From NCBI RefSeq assembly GCF_013004065.1, contig NZ_CP053084.1, positions 310,001 through 374,000 on the forward strand: DNA of 64,000 bases. Reading direction: 5' to 3'. Under the pieces are notes generated by a model that was given only the letters and a program-made list of their open reading frames with translations, did no database searches and was not told where the DNA came from. Numbering within the stretch: position 1 is the first letter of the stretch; every line of letters starts with the position of its first letter. This DNA is from Limnobacter sp. SAORIC-580 (GTDB taxonomy: Bacteria > Pseudomonadota > Gammaproteobacteria > Burkholderiales > Burkholderiaceae_B). A program made the translations under genes and the position numbers. Shown piece after piece: positions 6,445 through 26,176 of the stretch.

Positions 6445-6458
6445 ACATTGCGCAATGT
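6445..6458. promoter_or_regulatory. Perfect palindrome ACATTGCGCAATGT upstream of the PF10118 gene
   Basis: A 14-base perfect palindrome lies about 50 bases upstream of the minus-strand start at 6396. On that strand it sits between a possible TTGTTA (-35) and GTTAAA (-10). This is a typical place for a TetR-type operator, but the regulator is not in the window. Confidence 0.5.
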
Positions 6459-6541
6459 AACAATAAAATTTCATGTCCACAATAGCAAAACCTGAGTACC
6501 CATTCTAGAAAACACCGCGGGTTTACCCTGAACCTGCTGTG

Positions 6542-6946: not shown

Positions 6947-6949
6947 GTT

Positions 6950-7573: not shown

Positions 7574-7627
7574 GGTTAAGATGGCTAGCGAGCCAAACCA
7601 CGATTTTAAAAAACAGCCGAGAGTACC

Positions 7628-8431: not shown

Positions 8432-8517
8432 AATCTCGGGGCGTGCCGCATCCAGCGGCGCACTTCATGCAGTAACAACAGATTCGGGAATAAAAAACAC
8501 AACACGGAGACATGCCC

Positions 8518-9930: not shown

Positions 9931-9933
9931 AGT

Positions 9934-10150: not shown

Positions 10151-11863
10151 TTATCCCCCTTGGCTGGATGCCGCAATGTTTTGAACCGGGCCCAGCATTT
10201 TCCATGCGGCTCCCGGGGCCTTGATCCAATACGACCCCTGACTTTCCATCACAGTGATGTTGCCTTGTTGGGATACAAACCGGGTGTCGGGCAGGTCGCT
10301 GAGCAGCACCGGCCAGGTTGGCTTTTGCTGTTGCTCGGCTGGTTGTGCCAGCCAACGTGCCAACAATTCACTGAGTGCTGTGTAACTGACCGACTGCTTC
10401 ACCGTTACAGGCCCGGTGCTTGTTGGCGTGTACCCGGGCGCAATCCAGTAGCCAAATACAGGCACTTTGGTAATGGCGGGGGTTGGCAATTCACGCAAGC
10501 CCACCAGTTGTCCAAATTCACCCGTCAATCCAGCGCCGTGTTCGGGTACCACCACCACCAACGCCTTGCGTTCGCTGCGTCGAATTTCCCCAAGTACGGA
10601 TTGAATATCATTCAACATCCGCTCCAGGCGCAAGGGGTAACTGTTCAGGCTGTTCAGGTTGCTGTTGGGCAAACGGTTGCCGTCGTGCAAAGTAATGCTG
10701 TTGTAGTAATAAGCCACTGCGGGCCCGCTTTGCTGAACGCGTTTGTTCCACCATGCACGCAGGTAATCACCATCGCGACCCACGCGTGAGCCATCAAAGG
10801 CTTGTACCCCCGCAGGCACTTCGTCATGGGCCACCAGTTCAGTGGCTTTGCCGCCCAGGTTTGTTTTAACAAGTTTCGAAAAGTCTTGAAAGCGACCATC
10901 GTGATTCAGCCCCATCTCCACTTCAAAGCCTACATTTCGAAGCTGCTCAAACAACATGCAACTGTTGTTGGGTGTGCTGTAAAGTGCATCGTGCGGTGTT
11001 TGCCCACATTTTCCGCGCAACAGGCGAATGGCTGCTGGCCCCGAGTAACTGGTTGCCGAGTTGAAGTTCTCGAACACAAAATCGGCTTGCCGAATGGCAG
11101 GGTGTTGGCTCTGTTTTGCATACTGCAGGTCGGCCCAGGACAGTGAACAGATTTGCAGCACAATTACATCGAAATCGGGACTTGCCACCGGTGAAAAGGG
11201 TGCCAATGCAATAGTGCGTTGCCGGTCAAAAAAACCAGCGAGTACTGCACCCGGGCCAGCACCCTCATAGGCATTGTCCCGAAGTTTGGTTTGACTTTCC
11301 TGGTCACGGGCTACTCGCAGTTTCTGAAAATCCAGCTGACCCAGAGCCAGCAGTTCGGCAGGTGACAAATTTTCACGGGTTTGAGCTTGAGGTTCAAGCA
11401 CAGCCGCGGTTTTACTTGCTTGAGTTTGTTGTTGAATAAAAGGCAGCGTTTGAATCCCGAGGATGCACACAAGCCCAAACCCAACCCAACTGCTAATGCG
11501 TATGTACCGGTCGAGCACCCGAACCACCATGAAACCAAGTAGCGCGCTCCACAGCATCCAGGGTTGAATGGTGCGTTTAAGCAGTTCCCACAAATAGTCG
11601 AGCGAGAAGCCGAACAACGCCTTGATTTGATCAACCAGCGCCAAGGACACCACCAAACCCAGTTCGTGCAGCAGCAAGGCAATGGCTGGGCCAGTAAACA
11701 CCAGGTAGCGCAGCACCTTCATCAGCTGTTTGTTTTGATAGGCTGCGGGGTTGGTGGCAATCAGCAAGGCAAACAGGCCCAAATTCCAAAGGGGGCTGAG
11801 TGTCAGTTGCCCCGCAAAGTGCAGGCCGAACTTGATGAGAAAATAAAGGTTCCACAACAGCAT
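10151..11863 (-). CDS. bcsG: Cellulose phosphoethanolamine transferase BcsG
   Basis: A 570-residue inner-membrane protein with about five N-terminal transmembrane helices (to about residue 140) and a periplasmic alkaline-phosphatase-fold domain. The zinc and nucleophile residues known from E. coli BcsG are all found at near-identical spacing: Cys239 in QICSLSW, Ser274 in TSYSGP, His393 in TLHDG, and Glu441-His442 in VPEHGAG. BcsG moves phosphoethanolamine from phosphatidylethanolamine to glucose units of nascent cellulose. It starts four bases after the bcsA stop, in the same operon. Confidence 0.93.
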   Translation of the reverse strand: MLLWNLYFLIKFGLHFAGQLTLSPLWNLGLFALLIATNPAAYQNKQLMKVLRYLVFTGPAIALLLHELGLVVSLALVDQIKALFGFSLDYLWELLKRTIQPWMLWSALLGFMVVRVLDRYIRISSWVGFGLVCILGIQTLPFIQQQTQASKTAAVLEPQAQTRENLSPAELLALGQLDFQKLRVARDQESQTKLRDNAYEGAGPGAVLAGFFDRQRTIALAPFSPVASPDFDVIVLQICSLSWADLQYAKQSQHPAIRQADFVFENFNSATSYSGPAAIRLLRGKCGQTPHDALYSTPNNSCMLFEQLRNVGFEVEMGLNHDGRFQDFSKLVKTNLGGKATELVAHDEVPAGVQAFDGSRVGRDGDYLRAWWNKRVQQSGPAVAYYYNSITLHDGNRLPNSNLNSLNSYPLRLERMLNDIQSVLGEIRRSERKALVVVVPEHGAGLTGEFGQLVGLRELPTPAITKVPVFGYWIAPGYTPTSTGPVTVKQSVSYTALSELLARWLAQPAEQQQKPTWPVLLSDLPDTRFVSQQGNITVMESQGSYWIKAPGAAWKMLGPVQNIAASSQGG

Positions 11864-11867
11864 GGCC

Positions 11868-14354
11868 CTAGTTCTCCCACTTCTCGGTTTGGTTCTTGTT
11901 GCCCATCAGGCGATTGCCCAAATCAACAGCACCATCTTTTAACCAGGCAAACAGGCGTACATAGCCGATCATGCCTTTTGCAAACACGTCTTTCAGGCCA
12001 CCCAGTGCGCGGTCACGGGTTTGGTCTTCTTGCCAGTTCAGCCAGGCGTCGGCGCGGCCAAAGGTACACTGAATCAATTGTGTCTCTTGTTCCGGGGTCA
12101 GGTTGGTGAACAGGGCTTCAACCTGTCCGGTTTCGGTGAAGTGAATTTTCGCTGGGAACAGAAATTCTCGGTCGCCCCGGTGCAAGCCAACCTGCACCTG
12201 GCTGAATTCGCTGATGCCAGTGGTATCGGCCACAGCCAATGTCAGCCCCGCTGCTGAATATTCTTCGGTGTAGCAACTGACTGTGTAGCCGCCGGGCAGT
12301 TTCAAAAAGGCAGGCATTACCATGCGCACACGGTGGTGCACATGTTTTTGAACCGACTCGGTTGCAACACCCACGGCCGCACCCAGAATGGCCAGGTTGA
12401 AACCGCACCACAACAAGTTCATCAACACAGTGCCTGTTTCATGGGTATTGAACACAAACAGTCGAAGCAAGCCCACGGAGAAGCCCAGTACATTGATCAA
12501 GAGCAAGATCAGGTAGGGCTTTGCAATGTTGGCATCGAAATAGCTTTTCTCGATCAAGCCGCCTTTCGAGGTGACGTTGAACTTGCCCAGTTTCGGATTA
12601 ATAAAGGCCAGCGTAGTCGGCAGAATGATGTACCAGGACAACACGGTTTCATACACTTCAGACCAGAACGATCGACGGTATTTGCCCTGAATCACCGAGT
12701 TGGTGTAGCTGGAAATCATCAACTGTGGCAAGGCATAACTGAGAATGGTTACTGCCGCAGCATTGATCAGGTGTTGTTCAAAAAACAGGTATGCCATGGG
12801 CATGACCAGGAAGATCATGCGGGGGATGCCATAGAAAAAATGCAGCATGGCGTTGGAATAACAAACGCGCTGAAAAAGGTTTAACCCCTTTTTAAACATC
12901 GGGTTGTCAGTGCGGAAAATTTGCGCCATGCCGCGTGCCCAGCGAATGCGCTGACCAATGTGGCCCGCCAGGGTTTCAGTGGCCAGGCCCGCTGCCTGAA
13001 TATTGTTCAAGTACACACTGTTGTAGCCCAGGCTGTGCAGTTTAAGGGCGGTGTGCGCGTCTTCAGTCACGGTTTCTACCGCAATGCCACCCACTTCCAG
13101 CAATGCTTTGCGTTCAATCACCGCGCAGCTGCCGCAGAAAAATGAGGCGTTCCAGTAGTCGTTTCCGTCTTGGATCAGGCCGTAGAACAAAGAGCCCTCG
13201 TTGGGCATTTGCCGAAATGAGTTGAAGTTGCGTTCGAACGGGTCAGCCGAGAAAAAGTGGTGGGGTGTTTGCACCAACACGCATTTGGGGTCGCGGCTGA
13301 ACCAACCCATGCTGGTTTGTAAAAACGAGCGTGTGGGTATGTGGTCGCAATCAAAAATGGCGATGTACTGGCCATGCGTGTGTTTCAAGGCATAGTTGAT
13401 GTTGCCCGCTTTGGCATGGGAGTTGTCCGGGCGTGAAATGTATTCAACACCAGCTTGTTTTGCAAATTCTTCAAAGGCGGGGCGGTGCCCATCGTCCAGA
13501 ATGTAAACCGTGATTTTTTCAAGTGGCCAGTCCAAGCCCTTGGCGGCATAAACCGTGGGGCGAACTACCGACAAAGGTTCGTTGTAACTGGGAATGAACA
13601 CGTCCACGGTGGGCCAATCATTCAGGTTCAACTCCAGCGGCATGGGTTTGCGTTTCAAAGGCCATGCGGTCTGGATAAAACCGAAAATCAGAATAATCCA
13701 GGTGTAGGCCTCGGCTGCAACCAGGGTATAACCCAAAAAAATTTCAGTGCCAGTTTCAAGATCAAGCGAACTGGTGAAGCGCCAAAACACATAACGTGCC
13801 AGTAGCAACATGGTCAGTGCCATCAGGCACAAGTTGGCAAAACGTTCAGGCAATCGCTTGAACAACATGGCAAACAGATAACACACCACAATGAAAACCC
13901 ACTGCCCTGCCAATGGCAGGGAGGCTTGCGCAGTGAACAGAAACAAGGTCAGGGCAGAAAGGCCCAACGCCCAGCGTAACCATTTGAAGCGCACCACAAA
14001 GTGGCTGGCGTTTTCAATACGCTGTTCAAGCCGGGCGGCGCGCACGGCATAGTCGGTGAACTTGCTAAACAGGGCACGCACTGACCGGTAGGGGCGCTGA
14101 ATCATTAGTTTGAACAGATACGCTATGGGGCTTAGCAAGTCGTGCAAAGCCACGACAACAATTTGAAACACGAAGCCTGGCAGACTTCGGCCTTGTCGGC
14201 CGTTCGATGCTTCAAGCGCACTGTTCAAACTGTTGGGACGTAACCAAAGTGCCTGAAAAAGGCGCAACAAACGAACCCGGGTTTTCAGGTTCGGAAATTC
14301 GCGCAGGTCCAGCAGGCGCTCTAGTCGGTTGATCCAGCTTGATGAGGTACTCAT
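11868..14354 (-). CDS. bcsA: Cellulose synthase catalytic subunit BcsA with divergent PilZ domain
   Basis: An 828-residue membrane GT2 glycosyltransferase that polymerises UDP-glucose and extrudes the glucan. Catalytic motifs are intact: DDG at 287-289, DCD at 335-337, TED at 430-432 and QRIRW at 468-472, with FFCGS before TED. Transmembrane helices flank the GT domain. The C-terminal PilZ region is recognisable but altered. The position of the RxxxR c-di-GMP motif reads HVHHR (671-675), and the D/NxSxxG motif reads EYSAAG. In E. coli BcsA the matching stretch carries RRSHR, from memory. The ATG at 14354 overlaps the bcsQ stop (ATGA), which indicates translational coupling. Confidence 0.95.
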   Translation of the reverse strand: MSTSSSWINRLERLLDLREFPNLKTRVRLLRLFQALWLRPNSLNSALEASNGRQGRSLPGFVFQIVVVALHDLLSPIAYLFKLMIQRPYRSVRALFSKFTDYAVRAARLEQRIENASHFVVRFKWLRWALGLSALTLFLFTAQASLPLAGQWVFIVVCYLFAMLFKRLPERFANLCLMALTMLLLARYVFWRFTSSLDLETGTEIFLGYTLVAAEAYTWIILIFGFIQTAWPLKRKPMPLELNLNDWPTVDVFIPSYNEPLSVVRPTVYAAKGLDWPLEKITVYILDDGHRPAFEEFAKQAGVEYISRPDNSHAKAGNINYALKHTHGQYIAIFDCDHIPTRSFLQTSMGWFSRDPKCVLVQTPHHFFSADPFERNFNSFRQMPNEGSLFYGLIQDGNDYWNASFFCGSCAVIERKALLEVGGIAVETVTEDAHTALKLHSLGYNSVYLNNIQAAGLATETLAGHIGQRIRWARGMAQIFRTDNPMFKKGLNLFQRVCYSNAMLHFFYGIPRMIFLVMPMAYLFFEQHLINAAAVTILSYALPQLMISSYTNSVIQGKYRRSFWSEVYETVLSWYIILPTTLAFINPKLGKFNVTSKGGLIEKSYFDANIAKPYLILLLINVLGFSVGLLRLFVFNTHETGTVLMNLLWCGFNLAILGAAVGVATESVQKHVHHRVRMVMPAFLKLPGGYTVSCYTEEYSAAGLTLAVADTTGISEFSQVQVGLHRGDREFLFPAKIHFTETGQVEALFTNLTPEQETQLIQCTFGRADAWLNWQEDQTRDRALGGLKDVFAKGMIGYVRLFAWLKDGAVDLGNRLMGNKNQTEKWEN

Positions 14355-15091
14355 CCGATCTCCGCGTCGATCCAGTTGCACAGCTTTTGCTGGTCTTCCA
14401 CCAGCTGTGAGCGTGGCGCGTAGTCGGCCAGCGCCAGGCCGGCGGCCAGGCTTTCTGCCAAGGCCTGGTCTTCATGCAAATAAAATGGCAACAGGCGGTG
14501 GCTTAGTTTCATCTTGCACAAGGTCCACAAATCCAGGTGCAGTACTTTGGCCGAGTCGAAGCGATTCATGAGAAAGTACGATGCGCCCCGGCTTTCCAGC
14601 AAATGTGGCAACAGTGTATCGATGCCCAATACGGAGGCAGAGTCTGGAATCAGGGTAATCAGGTTAAGATCAGACAGGGCCATCACTTTCTGGCACCAAG
14701 GGGCGGGCCAGCGTGGCAAGTCGATGATCACCACAGCATCGTCAGCAAATTCGTCTTGTTGAAACAGATCTGTCAGGCGTTGGGGCTGCTCCATCAACAC
14801 GCGGTCTATAGCCAATTGCTGTGCCACGGACACTTCACCGAAAGGCAATAACTTGAAACTGGCATTGGTGGTGTTTAACGCCTGCCCAATCGGTTCGCCC
14901 TGCAAGATGACATGCGCAAGGCCGCGAGCGCTGCGACTGGAGTAGCCCAATTGAAATTCAATGTTGTTGGCCGGGTCAGCCTGCACCAGCGTGACATTGC
15001 GGCCCAACATGTTGAGCTGGGTGGCTGCGGCAATTGCAAGGCTGGTTCGTCCTGCCCCCCCAGTGGGAGACACCAAAGCAATAATGATCAT
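14351..15091 (-). CDS. bcsQ: Cellulose biosynthesis ParA/MinD-like protein BcsQ
   Basis: A 246-residue SIMIBI-class NTPase homologue. The P-loop reads SPTGGAGRTS, lacking the two lysines of a classical deviant Walker A (KGGxGKT), and a Walker B-like VVIIDLPR follows. E. coli BcsQ also has a non-canonical loop, so this is family behaviour. BcsQ is required for cellulose production and secretion with BcsR and is thought to act at the cytoplasmic face of the synthase. It overlaps both the upstream bcsF-like gene and downstream bcsA by ATGA junctions. Confidence 0.85.
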   Translation of the reverse strand: MIIIALVSPTGGAGRTSLAIAAATQLNMLGRNVTLVQADPANNIEFQLGYSSRSARGLAHVILQGEPIGQALNTTNASFKLLPFGEVSVAQQLAIDRVLMEQPQRLTDLFQQDEFADDAVVIIDLPRWPAPWCQKVMALSDLNLITLIPDSASVLGIDTLLPHLLESRGASYFLMNRFDSAKVLHLDLWTLCKMKLSHRLLPFYLHEDQALAESLAAGLALADYAPRSQLVEDQQKLCNWIDAEIG

Positions 15092-15297
15092 GCGTCCTCT
15101 TTGTCATCGGGGCTGGCAATCCACTTGCCATGCCGCACCAACTGATCACAGTCGTCGGGCAGCTGGTTGTTGCTCCAGTTTGCCCAGTCACTTAGCCAGA
15201 TTCGGGTTGTCGGGTTTTTCATCATTTTTCCCACCAACAAAATGGTGAGCAAGACACCCAGCAACAAACCACTCACGATCAGCGCAAACACTATCAT
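15088..15297 (-). CDS. bcsF: Small membrane protein in the BcsF position
   Basis: A 69-residue protein with one N-terminal transmembrane helix (about residues 3-22, MIVFALIVSGLLLGVLLTIL) and a charged cytoplasmic tail ending DDKEDA. E. coli BcsF is a similar single-pass peptide that anchors BcsE at the synthase. Size, topology and position next to bcsE support the same role, but I cannot show sequence homology. GAGGA precedes the ATG at 15297, which overlaps the bcsE stop as ATGA; its own stop overlaps the bcsQ ATG. An upstream in-frame ATG at 15339 would lie deep inside bcsE and is rejected. Confidence 0.55.
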   Translation of the reverse strand: MIVFALIVSGLLLGVLLTILLVGKMMKNPTTRIWLSDWANWSNNQLPDDCDQLVRHGKWIASPDDKEDA

Positions 15298-16700
15298 TTT
15301 GCATCCTCGCTCAGCAGTGCATTCAGGCGTTGTGTCCATGGGCGATTCTGGTTCAGGGCTTCCGGGGCTTCATCCCACAGCTCCGCCAATTTCACTGGCT
15401 TGTTTTCGTCGGCGCCCATCAGGTCTTGTACCGACAAAGGTTCCAGTTCTTCGTGCAAATCGGCAAGCAACTCACTTTGGGTTTCTTCACCCAAAAACTG
15501 AATATCGCCACTGAACAGCACGGGCAGGTTTTCCCGGAAACACGATTCAAGCCAGCCGCGGTAGCTGGCCTCATCGGGCTCACTGGTCCAAACTTTCAGC
15601 AGGTAAATTGCTTCCCTGGTGGCCGTGAACACACAGGTGGCCTGCGACCAATTGGCTAGGCGCAATGCGGTTTGTGCGGTCATGTGACGCATCAGGGAAA
15701 GGCGTGTCAGCGTGCAGTGCATTGACCATCGTTTGGCCAGTTGCATCATCATCAAACCCTGCGCTGCGAATGTGGGGTTGGCCACTACAGTCAACAGGCC
15801 AGGCATGAACACTTCGTGCAAGTCTCTGGCAAACGTGTTCTGGTGATTGTCCGTGGCGGTCAGGTTCATTTCTGGTTTGTTCACCTGCCCGGTGCTCAGG
15901 CCTAGCCAGGTTTCAATGCTTTCGTCTTGTAGCCACACAGTGTCCGCACCCATACGCAGCAGCACTGATGCATCTTGTGCTGTCATTTCGCCGTGTGCCT
16001 GTATGTGAATTCCGTGTTGTTGGTCCGTGCCAAAACGAAGGTTGTGGCAGGTTTGCGCCAGTTGTTTCAGGCTACCCAATACCCCACTGTCCAGCACATG
16101 GTGCATGGGCAGTTTTGACAGCGCCGTTGTGTCGTTCCACAAGTTGGTTTGCAAGCCCCACTGGCTTGGCCACCAAGGGCGAAACTCGAATTCGCCAAGA
16201 TCGCTGACATCGGCCAGTCCGTCGGCAAATGTGCTCCATTCGGGCAGGTCACCTTGCACCGTGGTGACTACATGGGCCTGTGCATGGTGAGCCCATTGGT
16301 GCAGCAGGCGCATTTGCGCCAGCGGGTTTTGCCGGTTCAAGGGTTCGTCGCTGTCGTCAAACCAAAGTTCTGCATGTTCAATCACGACCAAGGCCGGCTT
16401 GAGTACACACAGTGTGTTCAGGGAACGGCAAAGTTGGCGAATGCCGTTTTTGGCATGCCCTTTGGCCCACAAGTTTCGAACTGAGACCACATCCAGACCT
16501 TTTGGGGCGCCAGCGCGTTTGAGCAAATAAGGTTCAAGCAGGTTGCGCACCTCGTTTTTAGGGCTTGCTGTGAGCCACAGGCACGACTTGAATGGTGTTT
16601 CTTCTTGCGAGTCCAGCCAGTGTTGCACCAGGCCCTGCGAAAAATGATTCGCATGGGGCGCGCGTACAACGTAGGCTCCGGGCTTGGGCAAGTCAATCAT
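15294..16700 (-). CDS. bcsE: Cellulose biosynthesis protein BcsE (GIL-domain family), without RxxD motif
   Basis: A 468-residue cytoplasmic protein matching BcsE (PF10995) in character and context, with an N-terminal degenerate NTPase-like region and a C-terminal half where the c-di-GMP-binding GIL domain should lie (about residues 300-430). In E. coli, BcsE binds c-di-GMP through an RxxD motif and raises cellulose output through BcsF and BcsG. I checked every Arg here and found no RxxD anywhere. The gene begins directly after the bcsC stop (TGA then ATG) and overlaps the bcsF-like gene. Because overall conservation is modest, the assignment leans partly on context. Confidence 0.75.
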   Translation of the reverse strand: MIDLPKPGAYVVRAPHANHFSQGLVQHWLDSQEETPFKSCLWLTASPKNEVRNLLEPYLLKRAGAPKGLDVVSVRNLWAKGHAKNGIRQLCRSLNTLCVLKPALVVIEHAELWFDDSDEPLNRQNPLAQMRLLHQWAHHAQAHVVTTVQGDLPEWSTFADGLADVSDLGEFEFRPWWPSQWGLQTNLWNDTTALSKLPMHHVLDSGVLGSLKQLAQTCHNLRFGTDQQHGIHIQAHGEMTAQDASVLLRMGADTVWLQDESIETWLGLSTGQVNKPEMNLTATDNHQNTFARDLHEVFMPGLLTVVANPTFAAQGLMMMQLAKRWSMHCTLTRLSLMRHMTAQTALRLANWSQATCVFTATREAIYLLKVWTSEPDEASYRGWLESCFRENLPVLFSGDIQFLGEETQSELLADLHEELEPLSVQDLMGADENKPVKLAELWDEAPEALNQNRPWTQRLNALLSEDAK

Positions 16701-19124
16701 TCAAAACCTCGAGTAAGGTGCAACACCTTCTGGTGGCACGCTTAATTCGAAAAAATCACCAAACGAATATTTCAAATAAAGTTGCAATCGGTCAGGGTTG
16801 TAACCTTCAGATCGGTCGATCTCAAAATAACCGCCCACCACAAAGTTTTTTAACACCTGGCGTTCAAGTGCAAGGCGCAAACCGGTGCTGGTGCCGCCAC
16901 CCGGGCCACCAATTTGCAAGGTAGGGTTGCCTTGTGCTGCAGCGGCGGCGGCAAGTTCCGGGTTCAGCGGATAAAGCGCAGTGTCGTCTTCTCGTGATTC
17001 ACTGGCACCCACGCGGGCCTGGGCCTGCCAGGACCAGCCATTCATATTGCCAGTCCAGGTAATGGGAAATGTGAGCGAACCAAATGCCTGGGGGCTGTAG
17101 TAACCGCCTTGTCCAAAGGTGTAAAAGCGCAGGTTTTTTTCGAACGACCACAAAAATAACGACGCACCAATTTCTACCTCATGCCCCGGGCGCTGAAACA
17201 CGGTTTTACCCACAATGCCTTGCAGGTTGTACTCGGTGTTGTCGGGTATGTTTTTGCCGGTAATCAGGTTGGCCCGAGCAATGCCAACAAAGTCAAGAGT
17301 GGGGTTGAATGCCTGGTAATACACCGCGCTGACACCGTTGCGCCGTGCGCCCCCCCAGCGCTCACCAGTTAAGGGATCGATGGCCCCCGTGGTCGACAGC
17401 ACGCTGCCGTTGACCATGCGCCGCGCCACTTCAAGCCGCAATGAACCTTCACCCAGGCTAGTGCGCCATTGCACACCACCCACCCAGTCATTGACCGGGT
17501 AGTCGCCCACCGTGGTGCCCAAATCAACCCGGTATTGTTCGGTTTGTACACCCACACCCACCACATGGCCTTTGTAGTTTTGATCCAGTCGGTCGCTGGC
17601 GATGGCTGGGTCGGTGGGCAGTGTGGTGCCCAGCTTTGCAAAGTTACTGGCGGTGGCGGGGTTCACGCGGCCCGAATTCGCATTCAGTGTGTCTGCGCGC
17701 AAAAACAGAGTGCGTTCAAAATCGAGTGGCAAATCCAGTTGCAAGGGGATTTCGTCACTGTCGATGCGGGACACACCTTCATCGCCGTCAATAATTGCGT
17801 TTTCATACGACATCCGCAAGCGCACCTGTCGCTTGCGCTGAAGGTTTTGCTCCAGTGCCTGCACCTCCGGTTCGGCTCGCCACTTGGGTGTTGTGCCAAT
17901 TGAATTGGCCAGCGCATTGAAATCGCCATTCCTCTCTTGCGCACGCAAGCCATCGAGGTACTGGCCGTATTGCACCCGCTTTGCCAGTGCAGTCATGCCC
18001 TCAGTCCAGTTTTCACGGGGTACGGCATCAATTAATTCAATGGCGTCATTGCCACGGTCCTGGCGAGCGGCCAGCAGCGCAGCTGCAAATCGCATTTCCT
18101 GTCCTTTGTCCAGCGCCAGGCCTTCATCCATGACTCGCCGGGCAGCCTGTTTGCTGCCTGCATCGCCTTGGTCATCCAGAAGGGTGGCCAGGTCGTAGCG
18201 AAACCAGGGGTAGCTCGGGTTCAGGTCTACTGCGTTTTGTAGCAGCCGGGCTGCCTCAGTTTTGTTGCCCTGATCAATCTGCTTTTGTGCATTGTCAGCC
18301 AGTTGTTGTCCCTGTTCGAAGTCAGAAAGTACCGGGGCTGTGGGTACTTCAGGCTCTGCAGGCGGGGGTGTCGCAACTTCGGGTGTTGTTGGCTGGGCTA
18401 GAGCTGCCGGTGCGGGTTTTGTACGGTTGGTATTGGCTGGGCGGCGGGGGGGTTGCGCGGCACCGGGTGTTGGCGTTTGTGCAAGTGTGCTGGCACCAGC
18501 ACCGCCCAGTTCAGCAAGCAGGGTTCTGTAACGGCGGTCGTCCGGGTATTGCCTGGCCAGCTCGGCCACTTGCTCGCGGGCGTAGCTGCGGCCTTCCGGG
18601 GTGCGGTTCATCAAGCGATATATTTGTACTGCAGCTTCACCCAAGGGTGGCTGTGGAAGCAATTGCCGAAGACGCTGTGGCAGGTTGGCAGGAACTTGTT
18701 CGCTGTCTGCGATATAACGCAACTCTGCAAATTGCTGCCGCTTGTCCGATGCCAAGGCAATGGCTTGTTGTAACTCAATGGAAAACGGATTGTTTCCGTG
18801 TACCAGTTGCAGTTTGCCCAGCCACACATTGGCTGCCTGCACATCGCCACGCGCAAGGTCAATCAAGCCTTGCCAGCGCAAGGCCGACGCGTTGGTGGGT
18901 TCTATCAACAATATTTTGTTGAAAGACTGCACCGCCAAATCGAAGCGAAAACGTTCGTACCAGTACACCCCTTTTTCACTCAGCGCACGAATATTGGTTT
19001 GCTGCGTATTCACATTGGCATGCACTGGCGTTGGCAATATTATGGGCATTGCCACAAAGCTGGCTTGTATTGCCCATGCAAGCGTGCGGGCCCGCAGGCC
19101 ATAAGTTGATTTGCACTTAGCCAC
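16701..19124 (-). CDS. bcsC: Cellulose export outer-membrane protein BcsC (short form)
   Basis: An 807-residue exported protein with a signal peptide ending near PTPVHA, TPR-like helices in the N-terminal half, a Pro/Thr/Ala-rich linker at about residues 209-268, further TPR helices, and a C-terminal BCSC_C beta-barrel (PF05420) ending in a terminal Phe. It forms the periplasmic scaffold and outer-membrane pore for cellulose. At about 800 residues it is well short of E. coli BcsC (about 1157), so it has fewer TPRs. The GTG at 19124 is chosen because AGAGG lies 9 bases upstream and the signal peptide then has normal length; an ATG at 19205 would overlap bcsZ by 89 bases. Confidence 0.88.
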   Translation of the reverse strand: MAKCKSTYGLRARTLAWAIQASFVAMPIILPTPVHANVNTQQTNIRALSEKGVYWYERFRFDLAVQSFNKILLIEPTNASALRWQGLIDLARGDVQAANVWLGKLQLVHGNNPFSIELQQAIALASDKRQQFAELRYIADSEQVPANLPQRLRQLLPQPPLGEAAVQIYRLMNRTPEGRSYAREQVAELARQYPDDRRYRTLLAELGGAGASTLAQTPTPGAAQPPRRPANTNRTKPAPAALAQPTTPEVATPPPAEPEVPTAPVLSDFEQGQQLADNAQKQIDQGNKTEAARLLQNAVDLNPSYPWFRYDLATLLDDQGDAGSKQAARRVMDEGLALDKGQEMRFAAALLAARQDRGNDAIELIDAVPRENWTEGMTALAKRVQYGQYLDGLRAQERNGDFNALANSIGTTPKWRAEPEVQALEQNLQRKRQVRLRMSYENAIIDGDEGVSRIDSDEIPLQLDLPLDFERTLFLRADTLNANSGRVNPATASNFAKLGTTLPTDPAIASDRLDQNYKGHVVGVGVQTEQYRVDLGTTVGDYPVNDWVGGVQWRTSLGEGSLRLEVARRMVNGSVLSTTGAIDPLTGERWGGARRNGVSAVYYQAFNPTLDFVGIARANLITGKNIPDNTEYNLQGIVGKTVFQRPGHEVEIGASLFLWSFEKNLRFYTFGQGGYYSPQAFGSLTFPITWTGNMNGWSWQAQARVGASESREDDTALYPLNPELAAAAAAQGNPTLQIGGPGGGTSTGLRLALERQVLKNFVVGGYFEIDRSEGYNPDRLQLYLKYSFGDFFELSVPPEGVAPYSRF

Positions 19125-20268
19125 AGCTTTTAACCTCTTTGCCTCGGGGCAATAATTCGCCCAAGGAATTGAATCGATAAAACTTGTCCATGTACCCTTG
19201 AGCAAACAGGCTCAAGGCGCCGTTGTAGTAACCGTATTTCAGCCACGCTTCCTTGTTCGAAGTTTTCAGGCTTTGGGTGTGAAATTTTTTCGCAAGCTCG
19301 GGCATGCCGATGGCTTGAAGAAAAGGTGCCATGCTGGCTTGAAAACCGGAAGGCCCACGCTCTGTGGAAAATTTTCCAGTCATTGGTTCAAACCACTCAG
19401 GCATGTTCTGGCGTTTCAACAACAAGGCCGCCAAGGGCGACAGTTGTTTCAGCAAGGGCGCTGTGGTGGGGTCGTTTTCGCTGCTCATGGCGATCCACAG
19501 ATAGGTGCGTATGGCGTCATAATCGCCACGTTGCTCATCGTCGGGCAAGCTCATTTCACCATTGTTGTACAGCACCCAGTCGGGATACTGGCCTGTGCGG
19601 CCGGTGTCCAGCAGCAGTTTCTGGCTGGCCAGGTAAACTTGGGCCCAGCGCGAGTCGTCGGCCCAGGCATTGGCAAAGCGGGCCATCATGAAAGGCGGCA
19701 GATAGCTGGGGTTAAGTTTCACCGCACCATTGTCCAGCACAAAACCGGTGTGGCCTGGCAATATGCTTAAGCCCAAGCCGCTGACTTCCATACTTTCTTT
19801 GTTCAGAATCAAATCACCCAATGTGCGCGCTTTGTCGGCGTAGGTTTGGTTACACCACACGCGGCTGGCTTCAAGCAGGGCGTAGGCAATCCACAGGTCG
19901 GCATCTGATGCACTGTTGGCATCAATCACGCCCCAGCTTTCCCCTTTCTTGCCCCAAATCCATGCGGGCAATTGTTTGCCCATGTCGCCGGCACTCAGGT
20001 TGTTCTCAGTCCAATTCAATATGGCGTCAAACGCCTTTTGGTCTTGTGCCACCAAGGCAAAGAACAGAGCGTAGGATTGCCCCTCTGACACGGTGCGCAG
20101 GTCTTCCTGACTTCGGTCAATCACGCGCCCGTCCTCGCTCACAAACGCACTTTTGAAACCGTCCCATGCAGGCCAGGCCTGCGCGGGCGTGGCGCTGCAT
20201 GCTGCGGTGGCAGCAAGCAGTAGTGCGCCCTGCCCCAGGCGTTGCAACAAATTACGCCACAAGGCCAT
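19117..20268 (-). CDS. bcsZ: Periplasmic endoglucanase BcsZ (GH8 cellulase)
   Basis: A 383-residue glycoside hydrolase family 8 enzyme. A signal peptide ends at TPAQA and the mature protein starts at WPAWDGF. The SEGQSYALFFA motif holds the general acid (Glu62), and SASDADLWIAYALL and GDYDAIRTYLWI follow as in family 8. BcsZ trims cellulose in the periplasm during synthesis. The ATG at 20268 lies two bases after the bcsB stop; the longer frame from 20412 is rejected as it would overlap bcsB and lack a signal peptide at its N-terminus. Its end overlaps the bcsC GTG by 8 bases. Confidence 0.93.
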   Translation of the reverse strand: MALWRNLLQRLGQGALLLAATAACSATPAQAWPAWDGFKSAFVSEDGRVIDRSQEDLRTVSEGQSYALFFALVAQDQKAFDAILNWTENNLSAGDMGKQLPAWIWGKKGESWGVIDANSASDADLWIAYALLEASRVWCNQTYADKARTLGDLILNKESMEVSGLGLSILPGHTGFVLDNGAVKLNPSYLPPFMMARFANAWADDSRWAQVYLASQKLLLDTGRTGQYPDWVLYNNGEMSLPDDEQRGDYDAIRTYLWIAMSSENDPTTAPLLKQLSPLAALLLKRQNMPEWFEPMTGKFSTERGPSGFQASMAPFLQAIGMPELAKKFHTQSLKTSNKEAWLKYGYYNGALSLFAQGYMDKFYRFNSLGELLPRGKEVKSCG

Positions 20269-20270
20269 TG

Positions 20271-22502
20271 TCAATTGCCTTTTGTGCGGCGCGATGCCCG
20301 GCCAGACAACCAGCCAAATGCAAGAATCGCCAAGATCACCCCAGCCAGGGCACCACCCACCGCAATCAATGCGGGGTATTCTGAAAACGCAATACGCAAA
20401 CGCAACCACCAAGGCAGAGCGCCGCTGATGTATGTTTCTCCCAGGCTGTAGCTTTGAATGTCATCGCCACGAATCAGGCTCACGCTGCCTTTGATTTTAG
20501 CAACGTCGCCATAATCCGACAGGGCAGCCACTGCGCGCTCAAAACTGTCTTGATCTGTGCCAGTTACCACCAGCCCGGCTTTTTTGGGTGCAAGGTGCGA
20601 CTCAAATCCCACAATTGCACCCAGCGAGCCTGCGGTTTGAATCAAGGCACGCGCGCTGTCGCTGGGTTGTAATTCCGTATCGCTTTGCCACAAACCCTTC
20701 AGCCACTGAATGGCAGGTGGCAGGCCCATGCTGCGTTCGGTGGCGTTCAATACCATGGGCAAATTCATGTTGGCATTATTCAGCCAATCCAGGCGATCGC
20801 TGGTGCCCATGGCCAACCAGTTCTTGGTTCCAATGCCTTCGGGCTTGTCAGAAACAATCAGGGTGGTGCGAGTGGCAGGCAGACCTGTCCACTGTCCAAA
20901 CAGGCCCATCACATTCAGGTAGGAACGAATTTCAAGCGGTGTGGGATTGGCGGGCAGCACAATCGCTGTGTCCGACAGGTCTGCCATAATGCTGAAGGGA
21001 TAACCACCGTTGGCAAAGGCGGTCAAGTTCGGCATGCGGGTGTAGTGGGGCAGGTTGGAGAAATCCAGGGTTGATTCCGGATCGATGGATCCTCTGGCTA
21101 CTTGCGTTACCCGCGTGCAAGAACCACCACCTTCGGCCATAAAGCCAAATGCAAAGGCCAGTTCGTTGTTGCCACCCACGCGGAAAGCTGGAATTTGTAG
21201 CGCCTCTTCACTGGTCAGTTCAGCCTGGCCCAACAAATCAATATTGATTTTGTTTTGTACTTGTTCCGAGCGTGGGGCAAGACGGAAGGATTGAATCAGC
21301 GAGTTATTGATTTCAATGTTCAGCAGCGAATCGTTCCAGCGGGAAGGCGCTGTGTAGCGGTATTTCAAATCCATGGGGATATTGCGGCCTGCCCAGCTGA
21401 ACAAGTCGGGTGGAAGGCGCAAATTGATGCTGGCGCGTGGCTTGTCAGAACTCACTTCCAGTTGCCCAGGAAAATCAATCAGCTCGGCAAAGCGCACAGG
21501 CCGGTTGGTGGGCACATAGCGCGGCGCGTCGTAAGGCTTGCGCGGGGCGCCCAAGTCCACTTTCTTGACCAGGGCTTTCTGGCCGCTCAGCACTTGGCCT
21601 TCAATCACCAGGCCATACACGGCTTGCAGCAGTTCCTCGTCGCTGCGGCCCATCACGTACAGGTGTTTTATCCAAGGGTTTTCTTTGGCACTCACAATCA
21701 TCAGTGAGGGGCCTTCAATGTCGGCCTCGCTCATGCCTTCAGGCATTTTTTTGCCTTTGGTCAGAATAATGGTGTGGCGCGTTGGTGATGCAGTTTCAAG
21801 CAATTCAAACTCAGCCTGGCGGTAAAAGGCTTGCGCACCCATCCAGGAGGCCAAAATACCCGCGGCTTTCATGCTGGCTTCGGTTTGTTCCACGGGCAGC
21901 ACAAGAGGCAACCGGAGCTTGCGGTTGTCTCGAGGATCGAAAAAAGGCGCTGGCAGCAGCGCCAGGTCGTTCACCAGATTCAGCGGTGTTGAGCCAATGG
22001 TCAATGTGCTTTCCGGGCGAATGTCAAACCGCAGGGTGGGGTTGCCCGGGTCCACGCACTCACTGTCGTAGGTGCCGTCGTATTCCACGCGAATGGTTGC
22101 AAAATCGGAAAACAGCAACGGGTCCAATTCAATTTCAACAGTGTGCGGTACACCGGCGCGCGCTACACTCAGCTGGGACAAACCTGAAAGCTGGTTGTTG
22201 ACATACACACGCACAAAGGATTGATCGTGGCGCATACCTTGTGGGTAAAGCACCCTCAGGCTAAGGCTTGCGCGGGTTACCAATTCGTCCAGGCGAATGC
22301 CTGAATTCAAGTCCACAAAGCGGTTGATCCCACTCAACCGAACCCCGTTGGGCTGCCCCATTTGGGCAAATGTCAGTGTGCGGGTTCGCTCAACGGCAGG
22401 CGCAGTTTCCTGGCCGGTCGGTACCGCAGCTGGTTCTCCTCTTTCTTGTGAGTACCCTGTCAGGCAAAATAGAAAAAACGCTGAGAATAGTAGGTGTCGC
22501 AT
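20271..22502 (-). CDS. bcsB: Cellulose synthase periplasmic subunit BcsB
   Basis: A 743-residue periplasmic subunit (PF03170). It has an N-terminal signal peptide (cleavage near LTGYSQ), the repeated carbohydrate-binding and flavodoxin-like domains of BcsB, and one C-terminal transmembrane helix (about residues 715-735), which packs against BcsA, followed by a basic tail. It is the first gene of the nine-gene operon, an unusual lead position, since bcsA usually precedes bcsB. The start has only a weak ribosome binding site. The 248-base region upstream is shared with the divergent STAS gene. Confidence 0.93.
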   Translation of the reverse strand: MRHLLFSAFFLFCLTGYSQERGEPAAVPTGQETAPAVERTRTLTFAQMGQPNGVRLSGINRFVDLNSGIRLDELVTRASLSLRVLYPQGMRHDQSFVRVYVNNQLSGLSQLSVARAGVPHTVEIELDPLLFSDFATIRVEYDGTYDSECVDPGNPTLRFDIRPESTLTIGSTPLNLVNDLALLPAPFFDPRDNRKLRLPLVLPVEQTEASMKAAGILASWMGAQAFYRQAEFELLETASPTRHTIILTKGKKMPEGMSEADIEGPSLMIVSAKENPWIKHLYVMGRSDEELLQAVYGLVIEGQVLSGQKALVKKVDLGAPRKPYDAPRYVPTNRPVRFAELIDFPGQLEVSSDKPRASINLRLPPDLFSWAGRNIPMDLKYRYTAPSRWNDSLLNIEINNSLIQSFRLAPRSEQVQNKINIDLLGQAELTSEEALQIPAFRVGGNNELAFAFGFMAEGGGSCTRVTQVARGSIDPESTLDFSNLPHYTRMPNLTAFANGGYPFSIMADLSDTAIVLPANPTPLEIRSYLNVMGLFGQWTGLPATRTTLIVSDKPEGIGTKNWLAMGTSDRLDWLNNANMNLPMVLNATERSMGLPPAIQWLKGLWQSDTELQPSDSARALIQTAGSLGAIVGFESHLAPKKAGLVVTGTDQDSFERAVAALSDYGDVAKIKGSVSLIRGDDIQSYSLGETYISGALPWWLRLRIAFSEYPALIAVGGALAGVILAILAFGWLSGRASRRTKGN

Positions 22503-22576
22503 AAGTGGGTTCGCTGGTCGACTGAAATATAAGAACAGGTTTTTAATAAATGCCTGCTTAAATCACTGCATTCAAA

Positions 22577-22604
22577 AATATTTGATCAATATTTATCAAT
22601 ATTT
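22577..22604. repeat. Phased AATATTT repeats in the bcs / partner-switch intergenic region
   Basis: Three copies of AATATTT begin at 22577, 22588 and 22598, spaced 11 and 10 bases apart, with a perfect 10-base tandem repeat (ATCAATATTT twice, 22585-22604) and an embedded TTGATCAA palindrome (22582-22589). Helical phasing of AT tracts suggests bent DNA or cooperative regulator binding in the control region of bcsB. The factor is unknown. Confidence 0.5.
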
Positions 22605-22678
22605 TAAAAAGTATGCAGCATAGTTCGACACGTTATCCTATTGTTTTTGTATATGCTCAATTTCTAGGGCTTGTTTTA

Positions 22679-22684
22679 TATAAT
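22679..22684 (+). promoter_or_regulatory. Consensus -10 box TATAAT upstream of the STAS gene
   Basis: A perfect TATAAT lies 66 bases before the STAS start codon, within a TTTTATATAATTATT stretch. No good -35 hexamer is found at 16-18 bases, so an activator or another sigma factor may be needed. Confidence 0.4.
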
Positions 22685-22750
22685 TATTGCGTGAAGTGTC
22701 TAAAAGAGCACACTTTAAGAAAAGAGAATTAACAGTTTAGGGCGAACAAC

Positions 22751-23089
22751 ATGGTTTCGACAGAAGAGGTGGGGGATATTTTCGTACTGCGCGTAGACGC
22801 GGTTCGATTGGACAGTGCCGTGGGAACCATCATCCGCAATGCGGTGGTGTCCAAATTGGACCTGACACAAAAATTCGCTTTGGACATTGGGGCTGTCAAG
22901 CTGGTGGACTCTGGTGGTTTGGGGTCTCTGGTTGCTCTGCTGAAAAACATCACCAATCATCAAGGCAAGCTGGCCTTGGTGGGCATGAACAAATCTGTGC
23001 GAATGATGTTTGAGCTTTCGCGCATGGACCGACAATTTTCCCTGCTGGAAGACATGCCCAAGGCAGTTGCCTTTCTACAGCAGGCCTGA
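22751..23089 (+). CDS. STAS-domain anti-sigma factor antagonist
   Basis: A 112-residue single STAS domain (PF01740) of the SpoIIAA/RsbV/HsbA type. The conserved phosphorylation site is present as VDSGGLGSL with Ser54. In partner switching, the unphosphorylated form binds an anti-sigma factor or other target, and a HATPase kinase phosphorylates the serine while a PP2C phosphatase removes the phosphate. Both those activities are encoded in the next gene, six bases downstream, so the two form a complete switch. It is divergent from the bcs operon. Confidence 0.92.
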   Translation: MVSTEEVGDIFVLRVDAVRLDSAVGTIIRNAVVSKLDLTQKFALDIGAVKLVDSGGLGSLVALLKNITNHQGKLALVGMNKSVRMMFELSRMDRQFSLLEDMPKAVAFLQQA

Positions 23090-23095
23090 TTCACA

Positions 23096-26000
23096 GTGAC
23101 GGAACACGAGCCCAACAAACAGCTACCCCGAATCCTGGTTGTCGATGATTCGGTGGTTGAGCGAAACTTGTTCGTTCACATGGTGGCCAAGTGGGGTTAT
23201 CCGGTTGAGTTTGCAGCCAGCGGCCAGGAAGCCATCGAACTCGTTGAGCGGCATCGCTTCCAGTTGGTGCTGGCCGATTGGCAAATGCCCGGCATGCAGG
23301 GCACTGAGCTTTGCGTTGCCTTGCGCCAGCTAGACCTTGGGCAGTACACCTACATTATTTTGATGTCAGCCCAAAATGATGAGGAGTTTCTCATCAAGGC
23401 GCTGGATGCGGGCGCGGACGACGTACTCACCAAACCCGTCGATGGCAATGAACTGGAAGCGCGGTTGCAGTCGGCAGTCCGCCGTATTGAACTTCAAGCC
23501 CGGCTGGCCCGAAAAACCAATGAACTCGCGCATGCCCACGATGTGATTGCGCATGACCTCCGTGCCGTATCCGGCCTTCAGCGCAGTTTTCTGCCCGAGG
23601 CGCAAAGTCCGTTTCAGGGCCTGAACTACCAGTGGTTGTCGGTGCCTTCCAAGTATGTGTCCGGTGATCACCTTCAGGTGTTCGAGCTGCAACGCGACGT
23701 GTATGGTTTTTACCTGCTTGATGTGTCCGGTCATGGCATACCTGCTGCCGTCAAGTCCATGCAGCTGGTTCAAATGTTTGCAGACCGCTCTGCCACCAGC
23801 ATTGTGTTTGAAGGACGTTTGGGATCGGACGGCCAGCGTTTGGTCTCGCGCCCTCGCGACGTTGTGGCGCGCCTGAACCGGCTGTTTCAGCAAACTGAAT
23901 CAGACCTTTCTTATTTCACCATGATTTACGGCGTGTTCAACACTGCCAATCGACAGGTGTCCCTGTGCCAGGCTGGCCACCCTTCGCCTTTGTTGTTGTC
24001 AGCTGGAAAACCAGCCAATGTGCTGGGCAGCGGTGGGTACCCAGTGGGTTTGTTCGATTTCGATGACTTTGAGGACATTGAGCTGACATTGGGCAATGAA
24101 GACGCCCTCATTTTGTATTCCGACGGTGTCACTGAAGTTTTGTCGGCCAGCTCCGAAGCGTTTGGAGAAAAACGCCTGCTCGATTTTGTCAATCAGCAAA
24201 GTAGTCAGGGGCGTTGGTCTGATTTGCCCGAGCGCATTCAAATGCGGGTTCAGCATTGGGGCGGCTCGGTCATTGAGCAAAAGGGTTTTGAGGACGACGT
24301 GTCTATTCTGATGCTTGCCCCGCGCCCCGGTGTATTGGACCAGTGTGATGTGGTAGATGCGGACCGGCAGGTGCCCGAACTGGTGTTTCGTTTGCAGGAA
24401 ATTCAGGCCAATCTACCCAGCTCTTTGCCTGCGAAAGCGGGCAAATCGATTGTTATTGTTGATGATTCCCGCAGCTTTTTAAGAATTTTCGAGGCCATGT
24501 TGCACAGTTGGGGTTACACCGTGCATTCCGCCAAGAATGGCCATGAAGCGCTGGCCCTGATTGAAATACATCAACCCGACTTTGTGCTCACCGATTGGGA
24601 CATGCCGGGCATGAGCGGTATTGAGTTGTGTGAGCAAGTGCGTGCGCAAAAACAAAATGCCTACACTTACATCATCATGATCACAGGTTACGCAAGCCGG
24701 GACGACCTTTTGAACAGCTTGCGCGTTGGGGCCGATGACTTCATGACCAAGCCGGTCAACCCCAGTGAGTTGAAAGTACGCCTGAAAACGGCCGAGCGAA
24801 TCGCAGATTTGCACACGGGCTTAGAGCGCAGACACACTGAGCTTAGCCAGCTGTATGAAGCCTTGCAACGTGACATGCGTGAAGTGTCAAGAATTCAACG
24901 GGCCCTTTTGCCCAAAAGCAAGCAGTACCCCTGGCCATTTGCAATTCAAACCATTTACCAGCCACAGGGTTATGTGTGTGGCAAACAAATGGGTTTGCTT
25001 GAAACCCAGGCCAATGAGCATGGTTTTTTCATGCTGAATATGGCTGGCCAGGACACGGCAACAGCGTTGCAAACGATGGCGTTGGCAAGGTGGTTTTCAA
25101 TGGCCCGTGCCACGCGCGTGTTGTTTCCCGTGGAGGAAACCAGTTCAAAAATTCGGCGTTACCTGGCCAGCCCCGAGCAGGTGCTGGCCCAACTTTCAAG
25201 CATTTCGCCGTCCCTGAAAGACGAGCCTCCACAATTTGACTTGCTCTATGGCTTGATCAATCTTGACCAAGGTACCCTGTTGGTCGCCGGTATTGGCGAT
25301 TGGGCCATGGTCATGGCGCAACCTGGCTTGGCACCCGCATTTTTGGGCACGCACGGCGAGCCGGGGCAGGCCCTTGGTGTTGGGCAGGTCATTTATCAAG
25401 GCGTGATCGCCCCGGGCAGCCGACTTTATTTTTACCCGCGGGAATGCGCAAACACTTTGGGCGTACCCGATATCCAGGTTTGGCAACAGTCCGTGTTGCT
25501 CGACGACACACAAGGGGATGTGCTGAGCCGGGAGTTTTCCCGCCTGCTGGATTCGGGTCGCAATGAAGTAGATATCGTGGGTGACCTGTCATTGCTTGGG
25601 ATTCAGTGGCGTGAAAGTTTTGAAGTGCAGCGCCTTGCCTTGCCTTCTGCGCGGGTATCTGAATTGGCCGATGAATTTGTGCAAACTGGCTTGACCCTGC
25701 AAGACGAGTTTTCATCGCACGAGCATGCCTTCAAATTGGGCGAGTTCCTGAATTACACTGCATTCACTGCTGTTGCAGATACCGTGAACATCGGTGTACT
25801 GAGCCGTGCGGTGCGGGCATTTGTAGAAGAGTTGGCTTACACCGAGGAGGTTTGTTACAACACCGATCTCGTGGTGTCTGAGGCATTGACCAACGTCATG
25901 TTGCACGGCTTTAAAGACAAACGCCCCGAGCCTGCGCAGCTTACTGTGCTGGCCTTTCAGCACGGAGTTGGGGTGTTGATCGAAGACTGGGGCAGCAGTA

Positions 26001-26176
26001 TTCCAGCCCATGTGCTCAGCAAAATGCACCATGAGCACTCTTTTCAAGACGATTTGAGTTTGGGCGATTTGCCTGAAGGAGGCATGGGTCTGGCATTCAT
26101 GCGCATGGTGTCGCGGCGTTTCGTGTACCAGGCCAAGCAGAATCAGCGCGGCAATCGCTTGTTGTTGCTGCTGTAA
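23096..26176 (+). CDS. Multidomain partner-switch protein: REC-PP2C-REC-pseudoPP2C-HATPase
   Basis: A 1026-residue cytoplasmic protein starting at GTG. REC1 (about 11-128) has DD at 17-18, phospho-acceptor Asp61 and Lys113. A SpoIIE-type PP2C phosphatase (about 160-410) keeps its metal ligands Asp191, Asp209 (DVSGHG), Asp343 (YSDG) and Asp401. REC2 (about 450-565) has Asp500 and Lys552. A second PP2C-like region (about 596-835) has lost most ligands. A HATPase domain (about 885-1026) has Glu929/Asn933 in the N box, Asp964, and GGMGLA at 995. Thus one chain holds a STAS phosphatase, a STAS kinase and two receiver inputs. It resembles Pseudomonas HsbR (REC-PP2C-HATPase) but with a duplicated REC-PP2C unit. 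The likely substrate is the STAS protein encoded just upstream. Confidence 0.9.
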   Translation: MTEHEPNKQLPRILVVDDSVVERNLFVHMVAKWGYPVEFAASGQEAIELVERHRFQLVLADWQMPGMQGTELCVALRQLDLGQYTYIILMSAQNDEEFLIKALDAGADDVLTKPVDGNELEARLQSAVRRIELQARLARKTNELAHAHDVIAHDLRAVSGLQRSFLPEAQSPFQGLNYQWLSVPSKYVSGDHLQVFELQRDVYGFYLLDVSGHGIPAAVKSMQLVQMFADRSATSIVFEGRLGSDGQRLVSRPRDVVARLNRLFQQTESDLSYFTMIYGVFNTANRQVSLCQAGHPSPLLLSAGKPANVLGSGGYPVGLFDFDDFEDIELTLGNEDALILYSDGVTEVLSASSEAFGEKRLLDFVNQQSSQGRWSDLPERIQMRVQHWGGSVIEQKGFEDDVSILMLAPRPGVLDQCDVVDADRQVPELVFRLQEIQANLPSSLPAKAGKSIVIVDDSRSFLRIFEAMLHSWGYTVHSAKNGHEALALIEIHQPDFVLTDWDMPGMSGIELCEQVRAQKQNAYTYIIMITGYASRDDLLNSLRVGADDFMTKPVNPSELKVRLKTAERIADLHTGLERRHTELSQLYEALQRDMREVSRIQRALLPKSKQYPWPFAIQTIYQPQGYVCGKQMGLLETQANEHGFFMLNMAGQDTATALQTMALARWFSMARATRVLFPVEETSSKIRRYLASPEQVLAQLSSISPSLKDEPPQFDLLYGLINLDQGTLLVAGIGDWAMVMAQPGLAPAFLGTHGEPGQALGVGQVIYQGVIAPGSRLYFYPRECANTLGVPDIQVWQQSVLLDDTQGDVLSREFSRLLDSGRNEVDIVGDLSLLGIQWRESFEVQRLALPSARVSELADEFVQTGLTLQDEFSSHEHAFKLGEFLNYTAFTAVADTVNIGVLSRAVRAFVEELAYTEEVCYNTDLVVSEALTNVMLHGFKDKRPEPAQLTVLAFQHGVGVLIEDWGSSIPAHVLSKMHHEHSFQDDLSLGDLPEGGMGLAFMRMVSRRFVYQAKQNQRGNRLLLLL

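Follow-up and report, generated by a model that had tools for sequence, protein, structure and literature searches.

Two receivers, one intact and one decayed phosphatase domain: a predicted partner switch beside the cellulose genes of Limnobacter

Introduction

Why would a bacterium keep, within a single protein, a second receiver domain in front of a phosphatase domain that has lost its metal ligands? The question is raised by two adjacent genes in a 64,000-nucleotide stretch of DNA from Limnobacter sp. SAORIC-580; the whole stretch is called here the window, its positions serve as coordinates throughout, and "own genome" refers to the genome of that strain. The first gene encodes a STAS protein, and the second a protein with the order REC1-coil-PP2C1-REC2-coil-pseudoPP2C-HATPase, called the five-domain protein in the rest of this text. 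The anatomy of the locus, as read from its sequence, is solid; its mechanism would be that of a partner switch in which, to judge from this anatomy, two receiver inputs act on one kinase/phosphatase.

An earlier note on this DNA had described a 112-residue STAS protein with a DSGG motif, six bases upstream of a 1026-residue protein, and both open reading frames are indeed present in that arrangement (Table 1). The note had also suggested that the five-domain order was undescribed, and no description of it turned up in the open-licence PMC papers searched. Within the same literature, Limnobacter together with an anti-sigma factor was not found, "two receiver domains" combined with PP2C brought up plants only, and the papers that combine partner switching, cellulose and STAS are, to judge by their listing, not about this system.

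Results

Anatomy and conservation of the two genes

Pfam recovers the STAS domain of the small protein and, on the large one, two Response_reg domains, one SpoIIE domain (201-407) and a HATPase_c_2 domain (895-1022). On the two receivers, the PP2C with its metal Asp residues and the HATPase with its intact N box, these matches and an alignment of 56 homologues agree with what had been read from the letters. A canonical partner switch consists of a PP2C, a STAS protein and an RsbW-like kinase with intact catalytic and acceptor motifs: by sequence, the locus has them all.

The homologue search, whose first round scored only the 8000 candidates with most words in common, yields 56 close relatives (P0001-P0056), after which the score falls from 807 to 204 bits; every one of them whose name states an organism comes from Limnobacter. 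A search with residues 572-880 alone returns 50 proteins, all among the 56, and the best 120 of the 267 proteins found with residues 130-410 contain one further, deeper tandem protein, P0121. All 57 rows, P0121 included, hold two REC-coil-PP2C copies.

No row long enough to cover the phosphatase and kinase motifs has lost them, as expected for a working switch: residues 191, 209, 343, 400 and 401 of PP2C1 are Asp in all 56 rows, and E929, N933 and H937 of the N box are kept in the 52 rows that extend so far. The DSGG motif is kept in the STAS genes of all 14 Limnobacter loci read. The two receivers are not equivalent: D456, D457, D500, T530 and K552 of REC2 are invariant, while Asp61 of REC1 gives way to Thr in three rows and to Asn in one. 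Mean identities to the window protein, computed on 52 of the 56 rows (four partial or broken rows were left out), rank REC2 (0.86) and the coil that follows it (0.82) as the most conserved segments, which also speaks for a working second input; the values are 0.75 for REC1, 0.77 and 0.64 for the front and back of PP2C1, and 0.69-0.77 for the front of the pseudo-PP2C against 0.40 for its back, residues 746-835.

The second phosphatase domain

Pfam does not report a second PP2C in the window protein. The segment between REC2 and the HATPase nevertheless matches a PP2C-only profile built from single-copy relatives with an E-value of 2.7e-12 (40.3 bits), the best of 200 shuffles of the segment reaching an E-value of 1, and hhalign aligns it to the PP2C profile over 212 columns with a probability of 99.1. 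In the relative L028, Pfam itself calls two SpoIIE stretches. Unrelated filler is ruled out by the profile match and the hhalign alignment; chance or artefact, by the two copies in 57 of 57 rows and by ratios of nonsynonymous to synonymous differences (pN/pS) below 1 in eight pairs.

The earlier note had taken this domain for catalytically dead, and the sequences bear it out. Among 18 second halves of the type found beside the cellulose genes (bcs-type), the position of D191 holds 17 other residues and one Glu, that of D209 is never Asp, and that of D343 is Asp in one. The second PP2C of P0121 is less decayed in sequence, yet it also lacks Asp at 191, 209 and 343. By its sequence, then, the domain is a true PP2C relative stripped of its metal ligands. 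Comparing the window with eight of the 14 Limnobacter loci gives pN/pS values of 0.07-0.43 for the pseudo-PP2C, with synonymous divergence (dS) saturated in several pairs, and the coding sequence of its front is under purifying selection. Predicted switch helices would lie, from the alignment, within residues 651-700.

The nearest precedent that we met for a pseudo-PP2C with a conserved front is Escherichia coli RssB, whose PP2C is inactive, C-terminally truncated and controlled through a linker and switch helices; in the Limnobacter protein, it is the back that varies. Control through a coil and switch helices has been described both for PP2C and for the RssB pseudo-phosphatase (PMC12143880, PMC5468089).

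Table 1. Coordinates of the two-gene locus, its domains and neighbouring features in the window
Feature	Position	Strand	Remarks
STAS protein, 112 amino acids	22751..23089	+	ATG 22751, stop 23087-23089; putative phosphoacceptor Ser54 in DSGG; Pfam STAS
Spacer between STAS gene and five-domain gene	23090-23095		six bases
REC1-coil-PP2C1-REC2-coil-pseudoPP2C-HATPase protein, 1026 amino acids	23096..26176	+	GTG 23096, stop 26174-26176
REC1, about residues 12-124, Asp61	23129..23467	+	Pfam Response_reg; Asp in 52/56 rows
PP2C1, about residues 170-410 (Pfam SpoIIE 201-407)	23603..24325	+	metal Asp in 56/56 rows
REC2, about residues 448-566, Asp500	24437..24793	+	Pfam Response_reg; Asp500 in 56/56 rows; most conserved domain
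Pseudo-PP2C, about residues 609-840	24920..25615	+	metal ligands lost; front conserved, back (746-835) variable
Predicted HATPase (RsbW-like) kinase domain, about residues 891-1026	25766..26173	+	Pfam HATPase_c_2 895-1022; N box intact
Divergent cellulose operon: BcsB, BcsZ (GH8), BcsC, orf468, BcsQ, BcsA (with PilZ), BcsG	10151..22502	-	
Dyad AAGTGT-N10-ACACTT, candidate operator	22694..22715	.	between bcsB and STAS gene; exact spaced form once in window

Origin and distribution of the tandem protein

That the REC-PP2C unit is duplicated, as the earlier note had it, follows from the match of the second PP2C by profile and hhalign, and a tree of the halves fits a tandem duplication. The tree has 70 rows: 24 single-copy proteins, and the two halves of each of 23 tandem proteins, namely P0121, four paralogs and 18 of the 56 bcs-type rows; short frames were left out. 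A branch sets apart each of the three groups (first halves, second halves, single-copy proteins), with supports of 68/38, 90/79 and 83/90, and none of 500 shuffles came as low. The tree is unrooted, contains long branches and comprises no sequence named HsbR, CrsR, SypE or RssB. With modest support, it fits one tandem duplication that would have preceded the separation of the bcs-type, P0121 and paralog lines.

The five-domain protein is matched in all 16 Limnobacter genomes, or 13 of 13 if only the good ones are counted. Two contigs share the gene in G006; G007, G008 and G013 match in part, with an internal stop in G008. With P0121 as query and an E-value of 1e-40, the family yields matches in 16 of 268 genomes, exclusively Limnobacter. 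At 1e-30, matches come from 7 of 399 genomes sampled in the order, two of them Limnobacter, from 15 of 369 in the class and from 41 of 398 in the phylum, with one Limnobacter each; the samples overlap. Among the matches listed, all those from outside the genus end by residue 404 of 1002, that is, they cover a single REC-PP2C only. The restriction of the tandem protein to Limnobacter holds for the genomes searched; since few candidates were scored per genome, rare tandem proteins elsewhere may be missed.

Three of the 16 genomes carry further, divergent tandem proteins: two in G002, one in G004 and one in G013 (loci L112-L115); those of L112 and L113 have the five-domain layout. The neighbours of the G004 gene (L113) include a T2SSE ATPase, a T2SSF protein and two proteins whose weak N-methylation motifs score just below the Pfam cut-off, and a similar pilus-like cluster is recognised by reading around L112, in G002. 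No STAS gene is found inside L112-L115 by tblastn at an E-value of 1. In a scan of the genus, the pilus-like clusters of G002 and G004 each prove to have a stand-alone STAS gene with a DSGG motif at their other end (L166, L167), about 9 kb from the tandem gene; the two STAS proteins are 34% and 35% identical to that of the window. In L114 (G013; 5918-8932) and L115 (G002; 7453-9999), Pfam finds no HATPase match, and the second PP2C keeps Asp at 191, 209 and 343 and has lost it at 400; the first PP2C of L114 has lost it at 191 and 343.

The cellulose neighbourhood

The STAS gene lies beside bcsB, the nearest gene of a divergent cellulose operon; the Limnobacter loci share the order of this operon up to the ends of their contigs. 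Neighbourhoods were counted on 14 Limnobacter loci and 31 others, after two receiver-only matches (L063, L064) were removed from 47 loci. BcsB, STAS and the five-domain gene stand in the same order in all 14 Limnobacter loci, with BcsB divergent, and a MerR gene follows downstream in 12, the contigs of the remaining two ending first. The BcsA encoded here has a PilZ domain, a family of receptors of cyclic di-GMP (c-di-GMP).

A looser form of the dyad of Table 1, AAGTG-N11to13-CACTT, occurs in 11 of 15 Limnobacter intergenic regions. A terminator scan of positions 22300-23100 found none, with about one expected from shuffles. Between BcsQ and BcsC, orf468 (15294-16700, 468 amino acids) has no Pfam family over its cut-off, its weak BcsE match scoring 19 bits for a cut-off of 244.65; it evolves faster than its neighbours, with 29-98% identity across the Limnobacter loci that hold it.

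Partner-switch genes and sigma factors of the own genome

By our reading of the three PF07228 matches of the own genome, the window protein is its only SpoIIE-type PP2C: the other two are PPM-type phosphatases, one of them fused to a protein kinase. At locus L002 (G000:C1, near 1.811 Mb), a PPM-type phosphatase and a Ser/Thr protein kinase read as one open frame. Of 14 HATPase_c_2 matches, that of the window is the strongest (55.8 bits, the next 31.2). STAS has six matches, the window's included; of the others, by reading, two sit in short frames, one beside ABC-transporter genes (MlaB-like) and one beside CheY-/CheA-like genes.

RpoS is over its curated cut-off in none of the 16 Limnobacter genomes, the own genome included, whose three sigma matches read as RpoD, RpoH and FliA. 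Two genomes have a second RpoD/RpoS-type match below the RpoS cut-off (G002:C1:193968-194768, in an 836-residue frame, and G015:C1:3441799-3442509, in an 865-residue frame). FlgM has two matches above its cut-off in the own genome. One is some 3 kb from the FliA-like frame; the second, a small open reading frame (L066:1474-1809, 30.8 bits), is not close to the FliA-like gene but lies some 3 kb from the RpoD-like frame.

Comparison with known systems

The closest described relatives in layout are HsbR-HsbA of Pseudomonas aeruginosa and CrsR-CrsA of Shewanella oneidensis, which likewise combine REC, PP2C and a kinase/anti-sigma domain on a single chain, have their STAS partner as a protein of its own and share a biofilm/motility context with the Limnobacter pair (PMC6482189). 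The comparison with HsbR-HsbA (one REC, one PP2C, one HATPase) drawn in the earlier note stands at the level of sequence. The Limnobacter protein has the same order of REC, PP2C and HATPase and an adjacent STAS gene, but inserts an extra REC-pseudoPP2C before the HATPase; HsbR and CrsR have one REC-PP2C unit and no pseudo-PP2C. The excerpted text of PMC6482189 does not describe HsbR or CrsR beside cellulose genes, whereas the Limnobacter pair adjoins bcs.

In Vibrio fischeri, SypE is similarly a single protein with serine kinase, REC and phosphatase domains that controls a STAS protein, SypA, governing a polysaccharide biofilm (PMC10120452, PMC3610818); biofilm is promoted by SypA in its unphosphorylated form, and SypE reportedly acts at a level below that of syp transcription (PMC3610818). 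Its order is kinase-REC-phosphatase, with one REC and one PP2C, at another polysaccharide locus, whereas the Limnobacter kinase is C-terminal. RssB of E. coli and P. aeruginosa shares REC-coil-PP2C with each Limnobacter half, but has neither a kinase domain nor a second REC-PP2C, and its clients are RpoS/ClpXP.

Among the single-copy relatives of gammaproteobacteria, STAS and HATPase hits lie beside the REC-PP2C gene in 23 of the 31 loci. GT2 and OpgC hits occur in 19 of the 31, and DUF3131 in 17 of these 19; Pfam confirms GT2, OpgC, DUF3131 and HATPase in both L033 and L034, and in L034 REC-PP2C and STAS as well. This Enterobacterales cassette resembles the Limnobacter locus in bringing the same three predicted activities next to a polysaccharide synthase; it differs in its separate genes, its single REC-PP2C and its different polysaccharide genes (GT2, OpgC, DUF3131). 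In L033, L034 and 17 more of L032-L062, a partner switch sits at a glucan-like locus of Enterobacterales that has been little described; a similar island, with an anti-sigma factor and its antagonist, is mentioned for Klebsiella pneumoniae (PMC12974863).

Discussion

From these sequences we infer activities, a division of labour between the receivers and an output, as follows. The C-terminal HATPase would phosphorylate Ser54 of the STAS protein and PP2C1 would remove the phosphate, as the intact motifs of both suggest. Phosphorylation of REC1 would set PP2C1 through the first coil, and REC2 would set the neighbouring kinase through the second coil and the conserved front of the dead PP2C, so that the phosphorylation state of the STAS protein would report the balance of the two receiver inputs. 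The STAS protein may then bind a partner and control cellulose production or biofilm; RpoS is probably not this partner, whereas a Bcs component is conceivable, as is a diguanylate cyclase whose product would reach the PilZ domain of BcsA. That the pair is an HsbR/SypE-like switch of this kind, in which REC1 acts on the phosphatase, REC2-pseudoPP2C acts on the kinase and the output tunes cellulose or biofilm, is a proposition to which we give as much belief as doubt. Besides the conservation of motifs, REC2 and the front of the pseudo-PP2C, what counts in its favour is that the own genome has no other SpoIIE-type PP2C and no stronger HATPase_c_2 match, that the order with divergent BcsB is constant in Limnobacter, and that many single-copy relatives adjoin a polysaccharide synthase; HsbR-HsbA, SypE-SypA and RssB provide precedents.

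Several observations weigh against it. The HATPase, with a mean identity to the window of 0.61, is less conserved than the receivers, and since Asp61 is lost in four of 56 rows, the REC1 input may be dispensable in some lines. Receiver sites are partly lost in L112-L115, where REC2 is decayed in part; together with the metal ligands kept in other halves of these paralogs, this argues that the division of labour is not fixed. Adjacency to bcs genes is no proof of output, and no sigma-70-like promoter was found in 22300-23100, upstream of the pair, where shuffles give about one. Outside Limnobacter, 12 of the 31 loci have no GT2 hit within the stretch examined. The support of the tree for a single duplication is, as said, modest.

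The absence of RpoS over its cut-off, the presence of two FlgM matches and a FliA-like frame, and the precedent of SypA in biofilm together favour an output on cellulose or biofilm and make motility through FlgM its main rival. Unphosphorylated HsbA binds FlgM, and its phosphorylated form binds HsbR or HsbD (PMC6482189): an unphosphorylated STAS protein could likewise bind FlgM and free FliA, the bcs neighbourhood reflecting only the choice between sessile and motile life. One of the FlgM matches being close to the FliA-like frame, and the tandem paralog L115 of G002 lying several genes from flagellin-like and flagellar rod/hook-like open reading frames on either side (by reading), would suit such an output; in all 14 loci, however, the neighbours of the pair are bcs rather than flagellar genes, and we consider a motility output rather unlikely. 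Much less credible still is an output of the CrsR type, with the HATPase as anti-sigma factor for RpoS and the STAS protein as its antagonist. The kinase domains of CrsR and HsbR do bind RpoS in two-hybrid tests (PMC6482189), but with no RpoS over the cut-off in 16 Limnobacter genomes and the sigma matches of the own genome read as three other factors, an RpoS output is rejected on gene content; the weaker second matches in G002 and G015 leave room for another sigma target.

Two other readings concern the second half itself, and we hold both to be improbable. REC2-pseudoPP2C could be an RssB-like adaptor that binds a client when REC2 is phosphorylated, instead of a relay to the kinase. RssB of P. 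aeruginosa is the best solved-structure match, the inactive and truncated PP2C of E. coli RssB recalls the variable back part found here, and both halves match NCBIfam RssB models, at 205.4 bits for a cut-off of 700 and 161.7 for a cut-off of 329, which is far from membership; but RssB is not fused to a kinase as this module is, and its client RpoS is the factor that has no match over the cut-off in any of the 16 Limnobacter genomes. Alternatively, the pseudo-PP2C could be a passive spacer or a decaying relic, REC1-PP2C1-HATPase acting as an ordinary HsbR to which the second half adds little. Its lost metal ligands and the linker-like variation of residues 746-835 would agree with a relic, were it not for the purifying selection on its front and for REC2, whose phosphorylation site is whole in all 56 rows.

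A bolder conjecture can be ventured, tentatively and with more doubt than conviction: a pseudo-phosphatase born of a tandem duplication would now pass the signal of a second receiver on to the serine kinase with which it shares a chain. The result would be a two-input switch made of one protein, where phosphate removal is driven by one receiver and phosphate addition by the other; some Limnobacter would also have copied this module, with its own STAS partner, to further surface systems, namely a type IV pilus-like cluster and perhaps flagella.

Conclusions

The kind of switch is already known; what is new is a tandem, half-dead, HsbR-like version of it that lies at a cellulose locus and is present in all Limnobacter genomes searched. 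It offers a natural case in which one PP2C copy is, by its motifs, active while its sister on the same chain is a conserved pseudo-enzyme. Since its relatives include separate genes, single-copy fusions and tandem fusions that differ in which half has decayed, the way in which a pseudo-phosphatase would relay a receiver signal becomes testable by mutants. For the genus as a whole, the locus points to a partner switch, probably not acting on RpoS, that is tied to the cellulose genes throughout.

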